Assembly: GCF_000020325.1 (NCBI RefSeq)
Contig: NC_010730.1
Span: forward strand, 1,736,175-1,800,174
Direction of reading: 5' to 3'
From: Sulfurihydrogenibium sp. YO3AOP1
GTDB lineage: Bacteria > Aquificota > Aquificia > Aquificales > Hydrogenothermaceae
DNA: 64,000 bases
Below are positions 13,421-44,487 of the stretch, in pieces. A program made the position numbers and the translations under genes. Each line of letters begins with the position of its first letter. Positions within the stretch are counted from its first letter, which is position 1. Below the pieces are notes generated by a model. That model was not told the DNA's origin, searched no databases, and was given only the letters and a program-made list of their open reading frames with translations.

Positions 13421-13488
13421 CAACATCCAACCTCTCACTTTCTCACTTTTAATAATCTATGGCTGCAACTGAGAACCTTTTAATCTTT

Positions 13489-13715
13489 AATTTTAAAGCA
13501 CTCTCATACAACAACTGAGGCTGTTCCAAAAAAATTTTGATAAAGATATTATCTTGCCTGTCATTCTGAGCGTAAGCGAAGAATCTCCCCCTTTTTACCT
13601 CTCACTTACTCACTTACTCACTTTTTTTAAAAGAGGAGATCCTTCGGACTAAAGTCCTCAGGATGACAAAAAAGGTAAACTTACAAAAATTTTAAAGCAC
13701 TCTTATACAACAACT
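13489..13715. repeat. MITE-like copy B with 11-bp target duplication
   Basis: The element at 13517-13704 begins GAGGCTGTTCCAAAA and ends TTTTAAAGCACTCTT. It carries both hairpin arms and a CTCACTTACTCACTTACTCAC middle. The perfect 11-bp direct repeat ATACAACAACT flanks it at 13506-13516 and 13705-13715. Directly left of the first repeat, 13489-13505 matches the right end of another copy, so two elements were probably stacked here. The rest of the 546-base gap between rpmI and rplY holds the palindrome above and promoter sequences, with no gene seen. Confidence 0.8.
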
Positions 13716-13781: not shown

Positions 13782-14375
13782 ATGATTCAAACCATAGAAT
13801 GGAAAGCATTGCCAAGAGAAAAAGCTGTTAAAAGCGAATTAAAAAATTACAGAAAAAAAGGCTATTTACCAGCAGAGGTTTATGGCAAAGGGCACCCGAA
13901 CATTTCAGTTTACATCAACAAAAAATCATTACTTTCAAAACCACACGGAAACTTCTTAATCAGTTTAGTAGTTGAAGGAGATCCGGAGCCAAAATTATGC
14001 ATTTTAAAAGATATTCAATACAGCTACTTAGGAGATGAACCTATTCATGTTGACCTTTACGAAGTAACACAAGGCTTGGAGCTTGATATTGAAGTCCCTG
14101 TTGAATTTACCGGAAAAGCTATAGGCTTGGAAAAAGGTGGTATCTTTGAAGCTCATTTACATTCTATCTTAGTAAGAACAACTCCAAGGAACATTCCAGA
14201 AAAAATTGTTATAGACGTTTCTAATCTTGATTTAGGAGATGTTCTCCACGTTAGAGATATCCAAGCTCCAGAAGGTGTGAAGATTATGACACATCCAGAA
14301 GAAGTTGTTGCGGTAGTTTCTGAACCAGAAGTTGAAGAAGTGTCAGCCGAAGAGGGAGAAGGAGCAACAGCATAA
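13782..14375 (+). CDS. rplY: 50S ribosomal protein L25, long (CTC) form
   Basis: L25 binds 5S rRNA; the long form carries an extra C-terminal beta domain and is linked to general stress in some bacteria. At 197 aa this is the CTC type. The N-terminal domain (about residues 1-90) includes GYLPAEVYGKG and HVDLYEV, and the C-terminal domain ends in an acidic Glu/Val-rich tail. A GGAGGAAG site precedes the ATG. It is followed without a gap by pth, the conserved partner. Confidence 0.95.
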   Translation: MIQTIEWKALPREKAVKSELKNYRKKGYLPAEVYGKGHPNISVYINKKSLLSKPHGNFLISLVVEGDPEPKLCILKDIQYSYLGDEPIHVDLYEVTQGLELDIEVPVEFTGKAIGLEKGGIFEAHLHSILVRTTPRNIPEKIVIDVSNLDLGDVLHVRDIQAPEGVKIMTHPEEVVAVVSEPEVEEVSAEEGEGATA

Positions 14376-38442: not shown

Positions 38443-39720
38443 AATAATGTTGTGTCTAAATAAAATTATAAGGAGGAGTAGTAATGGATAAGAAAGAATA
38501 CTTTGAAAAAATATTAGACAGATCTACCGAAGAATTAGTAAAAGAACTTTTCCCAAACGGTATAACAACTCAAGAAGAAAAGATAGGTATAAGAAAGCTT
38601 TTAGAATCTGTTGTGGAACTGATTATGAATCAGGAAAGAAATTTCTTCCTTGAAAATGATGAAGACAACAAAGCAAACGGATATTATGAAAGAAGCCTAA
38701 ATACTGGTTCTTTCAAGCTTAACATAAATGTCCCAAGAGATAGAAAGGGTAGATTTAGACCACAAATATTACCTGACCCTTACAAAAGAGTTAATGAAGA
38801 TTACATAAACCTTCTTATGAGTTTAGTATCCAATGGATACTCAGAAAGCAAGATAGATTCTACATTAAAAAGCTTGGGCTTAAACTACTCAAAACAACAT
38901 ATGGATAAAATCAAAAAAGAGCTTATAGAAAGACTTAATGATTTTAAAACAAGAGAGCTTCCATCGGATGCATTTGTACTGTATATAGACGCATATCACT
39001 GTGATATAAAAGAGAAAAACAAAATCAGAAAGGCTTCTGTCTATGTAGTTCTTGGAATAGATTTACAAGGAAATAAAGATATATTTGGATTTTATACATT
39101 TTTCAGTAGTGAAAATAAAGCAGACTGGATAAAAGTATTCAATGATTTAATAGATAGAGGACTAAAAAGGGTAATGCTTATAGTAAGTGATGATTTTCCT
39201 GGGATAACAAAAGCCATAGAAACACTATTTCCTTATACAGACCATCAGCTATGTTTAGTCCATTTACAAAGAAACGTTAGAAATCAGATGGATAAAGAAG
39301 ATTCACAAGTATTTAACAAAGAACTGAAAAACATAAAAGAAAACAGCTTAGATTATGAAGATGGATTAGAAAAATTAGATGATTTATGCGGTAGATTTAA
39401 GTCTAAATATCCAAGCTTTATAAAACATATTCAATCTAACAAAGAGAGATACTTATGTTTTTTAAAATATCCAGAAAATCTAAGAAAGCACATATACACA
39501 ACAAATCCAGTTGAAAGTGTTAATAGCATGATAGAAAAGGTAAGAATAAATTTAGGTGGATATTTTCAATCTGTGGACATTCTTGAGATAAATCTGCTTA
39601 TACAAAGAGACAATTTAAAGAATGGAAAATGGAAAAAGCCTATACCTGCTTTTAAAGGAGTCTCTTATGAAATTTTACAATTGTTTAATAAAAAGTTTTC
39701 AATCCAGACACAAAATTATT
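38443..39720 (+). mobile_element. IS256-family insertion sequence
   Basis: The ends carry near-perfect 16-bp inverted repeats: AATAATGTTGTGTCTA at 38443-38458 and, inverted, AATAATTTTGTGTCTG at 39705-39720. The right end overlaps the transposase stop codon. The element is about 1,278 bp, slightly short for the family. No target duplication is evident, so it may be old or rearranged. The dispersed-repeat arm GATTCTTCGCTATCGCTCAG occurs on both sides. Confidence 0.75.
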
Positions 39721-39722
39721 GA
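38484..39722 (+). CDS. IS256-family transposase
   Basis: This 412-aa DDE transposase belongs to the mutator-like IS256 family. It has the PRDRKGRFRPQILP segment and the first catalytic Asp in VLYIDAYHCD. The second is in LIVSDDFPGI, followed by the diagnostic HQLCLVHLQRNV motif, and the catalytic Glu is in TTNPVESVNSMIEK near residue 350. The frame is intact with a GGAGGAG ribosome binding site, so it may be active. Confidence 0.93.
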   Translation: MDKKEYFEKILDRSTEELVKELFPNGITTQEEKIGIRKLLESVVELIMNQERNFFLENDEDNKANGYYERSLNTGSFKLNINVPRDRKGRFRPQILPDPYKRVNEDYINLLMSLVSNGYSESKIDSTLKSLGLNYSKQHMDKIKKELIERLNDFKTRELPSDAFVLYIDAYHCDIKEKNKIRKASVYVVLGIDLQGNKDIFGFYTFFSSENKADWIKVFNDLIDRGLKRVMLIVSDDFPGITKAIETLFPYTDHQLCLVHLQRNVRNQMDKEDSQVFNKELKNIKENSLDYEDGLEKLDDLCGRFKSKYPSFIKHIQSNKERYLCFLKYPENLRKHIYTTNPVESVNSMIEKVRINLGGYFQSVDILEINLLIQRDNLKNGKWKKPIPAFKGVSYEILQLFNKKFSIQTQNY

Positions 39723-41043: not shown

Positions 41044-42055
41044 TAAAACCTATAAGCCTGTTCCAAAATTATTTCTTAAGTTAAAATTAAATACTCAAAA
41101 TCAAAAAATAAAAATGTTCGCATGAGAAAAACAGGATTATCCTTTAAACAAATCTATAAACTTACAGAAAGATTTTTTAAAAAGATTAAACATAAGGAAA
41201 AGAAAAATAGTCAAAGAGGTAGACCAAGAAAGTACAAAGATGAATTTATAATAGCTATATTTCTATATCAAACACTAAAACAATATTCTTATAGAGAAGT
41301 TCTTCAAGAACTTAAATATCTTAGCTTTAAAACCCCTTCTCTGAATGACTATCATTATAGGATTAAACAGCTTAATGAAAACATTTTAAAATTACTGCTG
41401 GAAAAAACAGGACAGTATTTTAATGAAAAAATTAAAGATAAATACAGTGCTACATAGCAGATGCTACAGGTTTTGCCTATGGAGATATTTATAGCCTTAA
41501 ATGGAGAAGAGGAATAGAGGTAAAACAGATAAAATCTCATATAAGACTTGAGGTTATTATAGCAGTAGATAACAAAGGTAAAGCGTTAATTTTGGGATGT
41601 GAAACAGGTAAAGCCTATGCAAGTGAAATAAAGATGTTAAATCAGATATTAAACAAAGTAGATTTTATCAAAGGACTACCTTTTATAGCCGATAAAGGCT
41701 ATGATTCAATAAGCGTAATACAAAAAATCTTAGACATCGGACTTATCCCTGCTATAAAGATAAAGGAAACTCTTAGAGTAAAAATAAAGCATCCATTGAG
41801 ACGGTTATCAAAGGAAAATTGGTTAAAGTATGGAAAGAAAAGATATAGCATAGAATCTTTATTTGGTAATATAAAGAACAAAGCAAATTCAGTGTTTAAA
41901 GTTAAAAGAGAAGATATAGCTAAGAAGTTAGCTATTGCTTGGACTATTCTTTGGAATTTTTACATGATTTTAATTTATGTATTTTTGTTTATCCTATCAG
42001 TCTTAATTTTAAGAAGAAGTTTTTTTTGATTTTTGGAACAGTCTCTAAAACCTAT
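41044..42055 (+). mobile_element. IS4-like element with 10-bp direct repeats
   Basis: The element spans about 41054-42045 (992 bp). Its ends are AAGCCTGTTCCAAAA and, inverted, GAGACTGTTCCAAAA. It is flanked by the perfect direct repeat TAAAACCTAT at 41044-41053 and 42046-42055, matching the long target duplications known for IS4-type elements. Its transposase gene is broken by a frameshift. The ends match those of the dispersed MITE family in this window, and copy J lies directly to its right. Confidence 0.82.
41122..42029 (+). pseudogene. IS4/IS5-superfamily transposase, frameshifted
   Basis: The transposase is split. The first frame (41122-41457) encodes the N-terminal region with QRGRPRKYKDEFIIAIFLY and the QYSYREVLQEL helix, and stops at TAG. 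The second frame carries the catalytic half: IADATGFAYGD (first Asp), LPFIADKGYDS (second Asp) and YSIESLFGNIKNK (Glu). It begins one base out of phase, just before the stop. The overlap of the frames is about 18 bases and contains no A6G-type slippery run, so a single-base indel is likelier than programmed frameshifting. Confidence 0.78.
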
Positions 42056-42208
42056 AAGAGTGTTCCAAAATTTTCGTAAGTTCGCCTTTTTGCCATCCTG
42101 AGAACTTTAGTCCTAAGAATCTCCTCTTTTGATTTTTTGATTTGAAAAGAAAAACAGAAGATTCTTCACCGACCACAAAATAATTGTGTGGATTTTCGAA
42201 CAGCCTCC
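42056..42208. mobile_element. MITE-like copy J, directly next to the IS4-like element
   Basis: The 153-bp element begins AAGAGTGTTCCAAAATTTTCG and ends GATTTTCGAACAGCCTCC. It carries a right-type hairpin arm (CATCCTGAGAACTTTAGTCC, about 42094-42120) and a degenerate left arm. It is flanked by TAAAACCTAT at 42046-42055 and 42209-42218, the same 10 bases that flank the IS4-like element. The shared ends and duplication indicate a non-autonomous derivative mobilised by the IS. Confidence 0.8.
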
Positions 42209-42217
42209 TAAAACCTA

Positions 42218-42246
42218 TTGACAAGATAGATATTTTGATATATAAT
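42218..42246 (+). promoter_or_regulatory. Consensus sigma-70 promoter of the IS607-type element
   Basis: TTGACA (42218-42223), a 17-base spacer and TATAAT (42241-42246) form a perfect consensus promoter 33 bases before the recombinase start. The first T of TTGACA is also the last base of the TAAAACCTAT direct repeat, so the promoter straddles an element junction. Confidence 0.8.
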
Positions 42247-42278: not shown

Positions 42279-42884
42279 ATGTATAAAATCGGTCAGTTTT
42301 CAAAGCTTACAGGTATTTCAATATCTACTTTAAGATTGTGGGATAAAAAAGGAATATTAAAGCCTGAATTTAAAACACCACGTGGAGAAAGAAGATATAG
42401 CGAAGCTCAATTGCAGTATATTCTTCAAAAGAAATCAGATGCACCACGTATTAATGTTGGCTATGCAAGAGTAAGTTCAAAGAAACAAGAAGATGATTTA
42501 AAAAGACAAATTGAATTATTAGAATTGTTTTTAGCAAAACAAGGCAAGCCTTTTAAAATAATAAGCGATATGGGAAGTGGAATAAATTATTCAAAATCAG
42601 GATTAAAAGAACTGTTAAAACTGATATCATCAAATCAAGTAGATACAATTTATGTTTTATACAAAGATAGGCTTGTTAGATTTGGTTTTGAGTTAATAGA
42701 AGAATTTGCAAAACTTCATAACACAAAAATTGAAATAATGAATCAAACGGAAGATAAAATAGATGAAGAAGAATTGGTAGAAGATATTTTAAACATAATC
42801 CATGTTTTTTCTCGTAAATTAAACGGTAAAAAAAGTCATATAAACAAGAAAATAGCTCAAAGGCTTTTAGATGAAAAACAGTAA
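42279..42884 (+). CDS. tnpA: IS607-type serine recombinase (TnpA)
   Basis: IS607 transposases are small serine recombinases. The 201-aa protein has an N-terminal MerR-like helix-turn-helix (YKIGQFSKLTGISISTLRLW, about residues 2-50) and a resolvase catalytic domain with the nucleophile in GYARVSSKKQEDDLKRQ near residue 66. The later arginine motif is YKDRLVRFGFELIEEF. Having the DNA-binding domain first is specific to the IS607 branch. It overlaps tnpB by 14 bases. Confidence 0.93.
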   Translation: MYKIGQFSKLTGISISTLRLWDKKGILKPEFKTPRGERRYSEAQLQYILQKKSDAPRINVGYARVSSKKQEDDLKRQIELLELFLAKQGKPFKIISDMGSGINYSKSGLKELLKLISSNQVDTIYVLYKDRLVRFGFELIEEFAKLHNTKIEIMNQTEDKIDEEELVEDILNIIHVFSRKLNGKKSHINKKIAQRLLDEKQ

Positions 42885-44487
42885 TAAGAAAAAGAAAAAC
42901 AGCAAAAAAGAACTATCTCAAAATACAGAACTTAGAGTATTTTCTATTAGAATAAAAAACGATAAATTAGAAAAAGAACTAAAACATTTACTTTTTACTT
43001 ACAAACATTTTGAGAATATATTACTAATACTTATCAGTCAAAACTATAATCTATACAAAGATGGCAAAGATACAAACGATTTCAAACTTCTTACTTCTCC
43101 GCAGCTTATGAGAAATGCTCTGTATGATTATAATTCTAAGCATTCAACACAGCTGGAATATCTCAAAAATAAATACAAAGATAATCAATTATGGCAAGCA
43201 CTGAAAGAGACTGCTAAGAAATTAAAACCACACAATGTAGTTGAAATTATAAAGAGAGTGAAAGCAAACTTTAAAACGTATTTTACTAACTTAGAAACTT
43301 ACAAACAAAATCCAAATCTATTTACAGGAATGCCAAAACCACCTAAACCTAAAAAGCTTTCCAAGATAATAGATTACTCAGTAGAATTAGATAAATACAA
43401 CTCTTTGTCTTTTACAAGATTAGAAAAAGAAAACTTGGTAGGCATTAACTTATCTGACCATATGGTATATATACACATAGATAAAAGACAAATTGAAAAG
43501 CTTGCAGAAGTAAGCAAGCTATACTCAGCAAGGCTTGTTTATGATAATGATAATTTGTATTTACAAATTAGCTACTTAAAAAACATCTCACGTTTCACAT
43601 CTCACGTTTCACATAAATACGCAAGCATAGATATTGGGGTAAACAATCTAATGGCTGTGTTTGTTGATGATGAAACCACTTCGTCATTAATAGTAGATGG
43701 TAAACCTTTTAAAGATTATAATTCGAAATTCAACAGACTTATACCCAAACTAAACGAAAGTAAGTCAAAGGAAGTAGCAGAATGGGCTGTATCTAAAACA
43801 GGTTCTAAATATCCTGCAAAATACACAGAAAAAGGTAAGAAAATTGGTAAGTTTATAAGCTATTTATATGCAAAAAGAAACAGGTTTTTTCACGATCAAT
43901 TTCACAAGATGGCTAAGCGTGTAGTTGAATATTTATATTTGCACGGAATAACAGATTTATTTATATCTAGAAACTTAGCAGAATTAAAAAATAATGGAGA
44001 ATGTAATTTAGACAAAGCTACAAAACAAAGCTTCATTCAAATACCATTTATAAAACTATTACAAAACATAGAATATAAAGCACAAGAATACGGAATAAAC
44101 GTTCATTACGTAGATGAAAGATACACATCTAAGGCAAGTTGTATATCAGATGATATAGAAAGCATCCAAGAAAGCCCTGACTTGACTAATGCTTTCAATG
44201 GAAGGCGTGTTAAGAGGGGCTTATTCTTGGATACTATTATAAACAAAGTGTTTAATGCAGATATCAACGGAGCAGTAAATCATATCAAAGTAGCGACAGG
44301 AAAAAGCTTTAGGTGGCTAAAAAACAAGCTATTTAAACTCTGCAACCCTATTAAAATTAAAAGCGACTACGAATTCTGTAGGCTACTTAAAAACCTACAG
44401 AATAGTGGGTCGGGTAATTCTGTGCCGTTTATCGGTGTGGAGGCGTCGCAGTCTAACAAGCTGATAGAAAATATCAGTTTTTGTTAG
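42871..44487 (+). CDS. tnpB: TnpB-type RNA-guided nuclease of the IS607 element
   Basis: TnpB is an RuvC-like nuclease guided by an RNA from the element's right end. At 538 aa it is longer than most TnpB proteins (about 400). RuvC-I is in SIDIGVNNLMAVF near residue 252 and RuvC-III in FNADINGAVNH near residue 465. The usual VxEDL RuvC-II motif is absent; the matching segment reads ISRNLAELKNNG, and an acidic pair is found in VDERYTSKAS instead. No CxxC zinc ribbon is seen. A tandem 14-bp repeat (43584-43611) lies just before RuvC-I. The 3' end overlaps a structured RNA region. Confidence 0.88.
   Translation: MKNSNKKKKNSKKELSQNTELRVFSIRIKNDKLEKELKHLLFTYKHFENILLILISQNYNLYKDGKDTNDFKLLTSPQLMRNALYDYNSKHSTQLEYLKNKYKDNQLWQALKETAKKLKPHNVVEIIKRVKANFKTYFTNLETYKQNPNLFTGMPKPPKPKKLSKIIDYSVELDKYNSLSFTRLEKENLVGINLSDHMVYIHIDKRQIEKLAEVSKLYSARLVYDNDNLYLQISYLKNISRFTSHVSHKYASIDIGVNNLMAVFVDDETTSSLIVDGKPFKDYNSKFNRLIPKLNESKSKEVAEWAVSKTGSKYPAKYTEKGKKIGKFISYLYAKRNRFFHDQFHKMAKRVVEYLYLHGITDLFISRNLAELKNNGECNLDKATKQSFIQIPFIKLLQNIEYKAQEYGINVHYVDERYTSKASCISDDIESIQESPDLTNAFNGRRVKRGLFLDTIINKVFNADINGAVNHIKVATGKSFRWLKNKLFKLCNPIKIKSDYEFCRLLKNLQNSGSGNSVPFIGVEASQSNKLIENISFC

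Follow-up and report, generated by a model that had tools for sequence, protein, structure and literature searches.

Stacked insertions of a candidate IS5-type element and a MITE directly upstream of a -35 box in Sulfurihydrogenibium

In a 64,000-nt window of a Sulfurihydrogenibium genome (G000:C1:1736175-1800174, from a single 1,838,442-bp contig), an insertion sequence (IS) and a short non-coding element lie end to end upstream of a promoter, separated and bounded by three exact copies of one 10-bp sequence. The reading that best accounts for this arrangement, to which we give a probability of roughly 0.8 from sequence comparisons, is that an IS5-type IS and a miniature element (MITE) moved in trans form one family that inserts directly 5' of a -35 box, leaving a promoter that survives and can be hit again.

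The repeat, TAAAACCTAT, occurs on the forward strand at 41044-41053, 42046-42055 and 42209-42218 and is absent from the rest of the window, where 0.6 copies would be expected by chance; an element end directly adjoins every copy, and chance is no explanation. Between the first two copies lies a 992-bp, frameshifted IS of ISAae1-like, IS5-type character (41054-42045, forward strand), with the left terminal repeat AAGCCTGTTCCAAAATT (41054-41070) and a right terminal repeat on the reverse strand that reads GAGACTGTTCCAAAAATC inward (42028-42045). Its transposase gene is divided between two forward-strand open reading frames (ORFs) in different frames, an N-terminal part of 111 aa (41122-41457; NF033579, 2.3e-5) and a C-terminal part of 145 aa (41592-42029; DDE_Tnp_1, 2.4e-9). 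The second copy of the repeat is common to the IS and the 153-bp MITE (42056-42208, forward strand), which has a palindromic interior between IS-like ends, AAGAGTGTTCCAAAATT and GGAGGCTGTTCGAAAATC; over their left ends (39 and 37 bp, each with its duplication), the IS and MITE intervals are 87% identical. These results bear out the preliminary description, which had reported three copies of the repeat around an IS and a small non-coding element with matching ends. The third copy adjoins a promoter on the same strand, and its last base is the first T of the -35 box TTGACA (42218-42223), which is followed after a 17-bp spacer by the -10 box TATAAT (42241-42246) and by an IS607-family tnpA gene (42279-42884, forward strand).

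The promoter struck by the stack is that of an IS607-type pair (42279-44487) consisting of a serine-recombinase tnpA and a TnpB-like RNA-guided nuclease. Near the stack, at 38484-39722, lies an intact ORF for an IS256-family (Mutator-type) transposase of 412 aa. A BLAST search revealed further copies of the IS/MITE family elsewhere in the window, and an Rfam scan of the window matched a tRNA only. No empty site was found for the window stack, the region 5' of the IS607 gene being single-copy in the ten genomes searched.

The IS had previously been labelled IS4-like, and this label does not fit. Its transposase pieces match DDE_Tnp_1, the IS5 model NF033579 ranked first among NCBIfam models (3e-13 versus 4.5e-6 for IS4), and relatives in Aquifex aeolicus are annotated as IS5-like ISAae1. 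IS4 elements likewise combine a DDE transposase with duplications of about 10 bp, but their ends begin with CA, CT, AAT or YT and their sizes are at least 1150 bp (table 1, PMC2266710), whereas the window IS has GAG/AAG ends and a length of 992 bp, and its IS5 match is the stronger one. When we looked for the IS4 YREK signature, Y-(2)-R-(3)-E-(6)-K, the R-(3)-E-(6)-K part was present, with Y-(3)-R in the window lineage and Y-(2)-R in a relative from genome G122. The NF033579 score of 49.9 bits, obtained with a 206-aa piece of a sister copy, is below the cut-off of 140, and only fragments were scored; we therefore use the wording IS5-type, ISAae1-like, for what is a candidate member of the IS5 family. 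That cut-off is passed, at 204.9 bits, by a relative roughly 40% identical that is present about 20 times in a 1,541,968-bp genome, probably of Desulfurobacterium thermolithotrophum. Like ISAae1 of A. aeolicus VF5, the window IS group has a homologous DDE_Tnp_1 transposase, a size of about 1 kb, terminal inverted repeats of the GAG/AAG type and duplications of 9-10 bp; unlike ISAae1 and NF033579 members, the window transposase is broken and scores under the cut-off. A search of plasmids for the relative gave no match at the DNA level, and the protein search a sole match, Aquifex ece1.

Promoter-like sequence recurs at a fixed distance from the ends of the family. Hexamers resembling a -35 box start 9-11 bp outside element ends, with a peak at 10, and -10-like boxes lie 16-18 bp further on. 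At sites verified by a target duplication, TTG was found at a single offset in 13 of 28 cases, against about one elsewhere, and the G122 relative has TTG at the same offset in 7 of 17 sites. Of 217 ends, 18 had a hexamer starting at position 10 that agrees with TTGACA in five or more of its six bases, where the background is about 1 (p 3e-16); these 217 ends overlap the 28 and 17 discovery sites and are thus not fully independent of them. After strict removal of related flanks, 13 of 188 ends remained, with about 1 expected (p ~1e-10). Pairs of -35 and -10 boxes spaced by 16-18 bp occurred at 20 strictly de-duplicated ends versus 1-3 at shifted registers, and at 12 of the 17 G122 sites versus 1-3. 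Relatives from other Aquificota keep to this register as well. Independent of the discovery sites are the A. aeolicus copies of ISAae1, in which we also found promoter adjacency (-35 scores of 6/6, 5/6 and 5/6), and two more relatives at that register, L165 in G119 with TTGACA and L155 in G095 with TTGCTA. Four new sites with strict duplications were too few and added almost no signal, and among five further copies from G122 and G123 only L290 reached 5/6, with L286 at 4/6. Promoter targeting is a tendency that falls short of a rule, since a strong -35 match is missing at most single ends and present at only some half of the duplication-verified sites. In a more distant NF033579 member, from G076, one copy has a 9-bp repeat and a -35 box is missing; the bias may therefore be confined to the ISAae1-like subgroup.

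Within this explanation, the transposase might read the hexamer TTGA(CA) as plain DNA and strike promoters simply because they contain it, a version that we hold to be a serious possibility, somewhat short of even odds. Two observations favour it and count against the main reading: one MITE adjoins TTGAGA within an IS, a place in which a promoter would not be expected, and ORF starts are no more frequent 3' of ends with a -35 match than of ends without one. Against it, the spacing of -35 and -10 boxes is promoter-like, and -10 boxes are enriched 30-34 bp from ends that have no good -35 match (26 versus 16 expected, p 0.014).

The small element is a genuine MITE. We examined 50 copies from three Sulfurihydrogenibium genomes, with at least 40 copies in the genome of the window (G000) and comparable numbers of candidates in G037 and in S. 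yellowstonense SS-5 (G039), a congener; no match was found in four other congeners or in the 34 other genomes of the family searched. The 21 full-length copies that were aligned average 80% identity and share the IS ends. Flanking repeats of 9-11 bp were present in 19 of the 50 copies, compared with 1.3% when flanks were swapped. Two empty sites were identified (L057 and L101), each an uninterrupted counterpart of a repeated sequence holding a MITE, in one case an IS of the MITE's own family and in the other a different repeated sequence. In being short, non-coding and multicopy, with parent-like terminal repeats and target duplications, the element resembles bacterial MITEs in general; it differs from them in that its interior palindromes are repeated many times across the genome and its stacked copies share one duplication.

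The interior palindrome TCATTCTGAGCGAAGCGAAGAATCTC occurs 95, 122 and 112 times in G000, G037 and G039 and not at all in the four congeners, with some copies apparently outside full-length MITEs. The tips of the MITE hairpins (for example, window 42093-42125) vary pairwise, as GG-CTGTAAGC-C, GG-ACTTTAGTC-C, GG-ACGTAAGTC-C, GG-CCGAAGGC-C and GG-GCTTTAGCC-C. Paired variation of this kind suggests a conserved cruciform or hairpin; as a structured RNA, a single copy of the MITE gave no significant fold (z -1.38). The IS copies of G037 and G039 show a gradation of internal deletions whose breakpoints are shared, and in G037 the breakpoints 471/523, 760/858 and 440/597 are common to different loci (L040, L046, L050, L055, L057 and L066), as if deleted, non-autonomous versions of the IS had also spread.

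An IS of the same family as the window IS is the likely mobiliser of the MITE, as the two have their ends, duplications of about 10 bp and genome distribution in common. The preliminary description had already proposed mobilisation by the IS transposase, and it came through the genome-wide comparison of IS and family ends, which share end-specific bases at both ends, as well as the search for 9-11-bp duplications and for empty sites at other copies. It had also named this IS as the likely parent of the dispersed family, which stands for the IS family and fails for the window copy, whose frameshifted gene prevents it from being an active parent as it stands. A sister copy at 827.5-828.1 kb, 96% identical, has an open C-terminal half and a masked upstream part, and a transposase gene both complete and intact was not observed in any examined copy of the Sulfurihydrogenibium IS. 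The three genomes, of 41 in the family, that have the MITE are also those with close relatives of the transposase, a co-occurrence that may count as one event because the three share one genus. It is unlikely that a different transposase with similar ends moves the MITE. Such an enzyme would fit the lack of an intact full-length IS and the existence of a second end allele (TGCTTGC, TGCTGT), but this alternative end, GAGACTGCTTGCAAAAA, common on MITEs, is also found on one IS copy (L047), and the two kinds of element agree in their end-specific bases, in the length of the duplication and in the target register. In G000, G037 and G039, many MITEs have the second terminal-repeat allele GAGNCTGCTTGYAAAAA at their 3' end and the ordinary allele at the opposite end.

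Stacks of this kind recur. We counted four, two in the window, one at 1544440 and one on G037:C6, and in 4 of 4 the last repeat is followed by -35-like and -10-like boxes, the latter at 16-18 bp in every case. A search for the junction pattern of two element ends separated by 8 to 14 bp gave four matches in two MITE genomes and none in four MITE-less congeners or in reversed controls. At 1544440, the repeats TTATAATCAT, CTATAATCAT and CTATAATCAT surround two different MITEs; on G037:C6, CTATATCTACT is common to an IS and a MITE, and CTGTATCTACT lies further out. A stack-like junction on G037:C8 was not counted, its outer repeats being unmatched. The second window stack (13482-13714), which the junction pattern did not pick up, consists of a 24-bp remnant end of an older element (13482-13505), the duplication ATACAACAAC (13506-13515, forward strand), a 188-bp MITE of a related subfamily (13517-13704, reverse strand) and ATACAACAAC again (13705-13714, forward strand). 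Next come TTTCAA-N18-TATAAT and, at 13782, an ORF resembling ribosomal protein bL25.

We propose that the transposase inserts elements with a 10-bp stagger immediately 5' of a sigma-70-type -35 box, which would duplicate bases from about -45 to -35, ending at the first base of the box. The promoter, outside the duplicated 10 bp, would be kept whole, so that the same site in the same register stays targetable, which would explain the threefold repeat and the three further stacks. Each insertion would place a fresh 10-bp copy beside the promoter, and newcomers would end up promoter-adjacent. In the window, the IS probably came first, at TAAAACCTAT/TGACA, and the MITE, presumably moved in trans by a transposase of the same kind, second, into whichever copy of this 10-bp sequence lay nearer the promoter. 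The stack at 41044-42218 by itself gives no information on this order; in the three informative stacks, the decayed partner is promoter-distal (the 13482-13505 remnant, a truncated IS at L149 and a mutated repeat at L148), which is in line with newcomers landing next to the promoter. That the target site was used twice, as had been suggested, is thus upheld, and the promoter beside the repeat, missed earlier, would account for the double use. As a rough expectation under assumed numbers, 60 insertions into about 1000 promoters would give about two double hits, compared with about 0.002 for random insertion over 1.84 Mb.

Random or AT-biased insertion, with stacks arising by coincidence or from a preference for element ends and promoters appearing only because intergenic insertions survive, is distinctly improbable. 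The flanks are AT-rich and many ends lack a -35 match, as it would predict, but if survival were the only cause, the boxes would be spread broadly upstream, and the position-specific peak, confined to about three adjacent positions and coupled to a -10 box at 16-18 bp, argues strongly against it, as do stacks in an exact 10-bp register with promoter-like sequence after every last repeat. Least probable is a joint move of IS and MITE as a compound unit, or an origin of the stack in recombination or tandem duplication: the elements do have the same orientation in the three fully readable stacks with matching repeats, but a compound unit would leave donor and not target bases between them, no IS-TAAAACCTAT-MITE unit with other outer flanks was found in the genomes searched, and tandem duplication is inapplicable to stacked elements that differ in sequence.

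Promoter-directed insertion has been described as unusual among prokaryotic transposases and was reported for Mutator-like families, namely TnGBS, ISLre2 and ISKra4, which insert 13-17 bp 5' of sigma-A promoters (15-17 bp upstream for TnGBS; PMC3942029). The group described here resembles these in keeping a fixed short distance upstream of promoters; it differs in the distance to the -35 box (9-10 bp versus 13-17 bp) and in the transposase, which matches only DDE_Tnp_1 and IS5 models and not those of the Mutator superfamily. We found no description of promoter targeting by ISAae1 or IS5 elements in the literature covered, which included few subscription papers, and an IS5-type lineage that inserts at promoters with another spacing appears to be a new form of a known behaviour. 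More tentatively, with odds clearly below even, this Aquificota lineage may have evolved independently to be guided by promoter-bound RNA polymerase or its sigma factor to the exact 5' margin of the -35 box; since this guide would outlast each insertion, promoters would accumulate stacked elements as an insertion register. If promoter insertion by this lineage is true, it would represent a second, unrelated DDE lineage with a different spacing and point to a convergent low-harm landing strategy, comparable to that of Ty3 at Pol III genes. It would also offer a thermophilic model in which to study how a transposase locates promoters, and it would explain simply and in general terms why stacked elements have a single duplication in common: the target determinant lies outside the duplicated bases.
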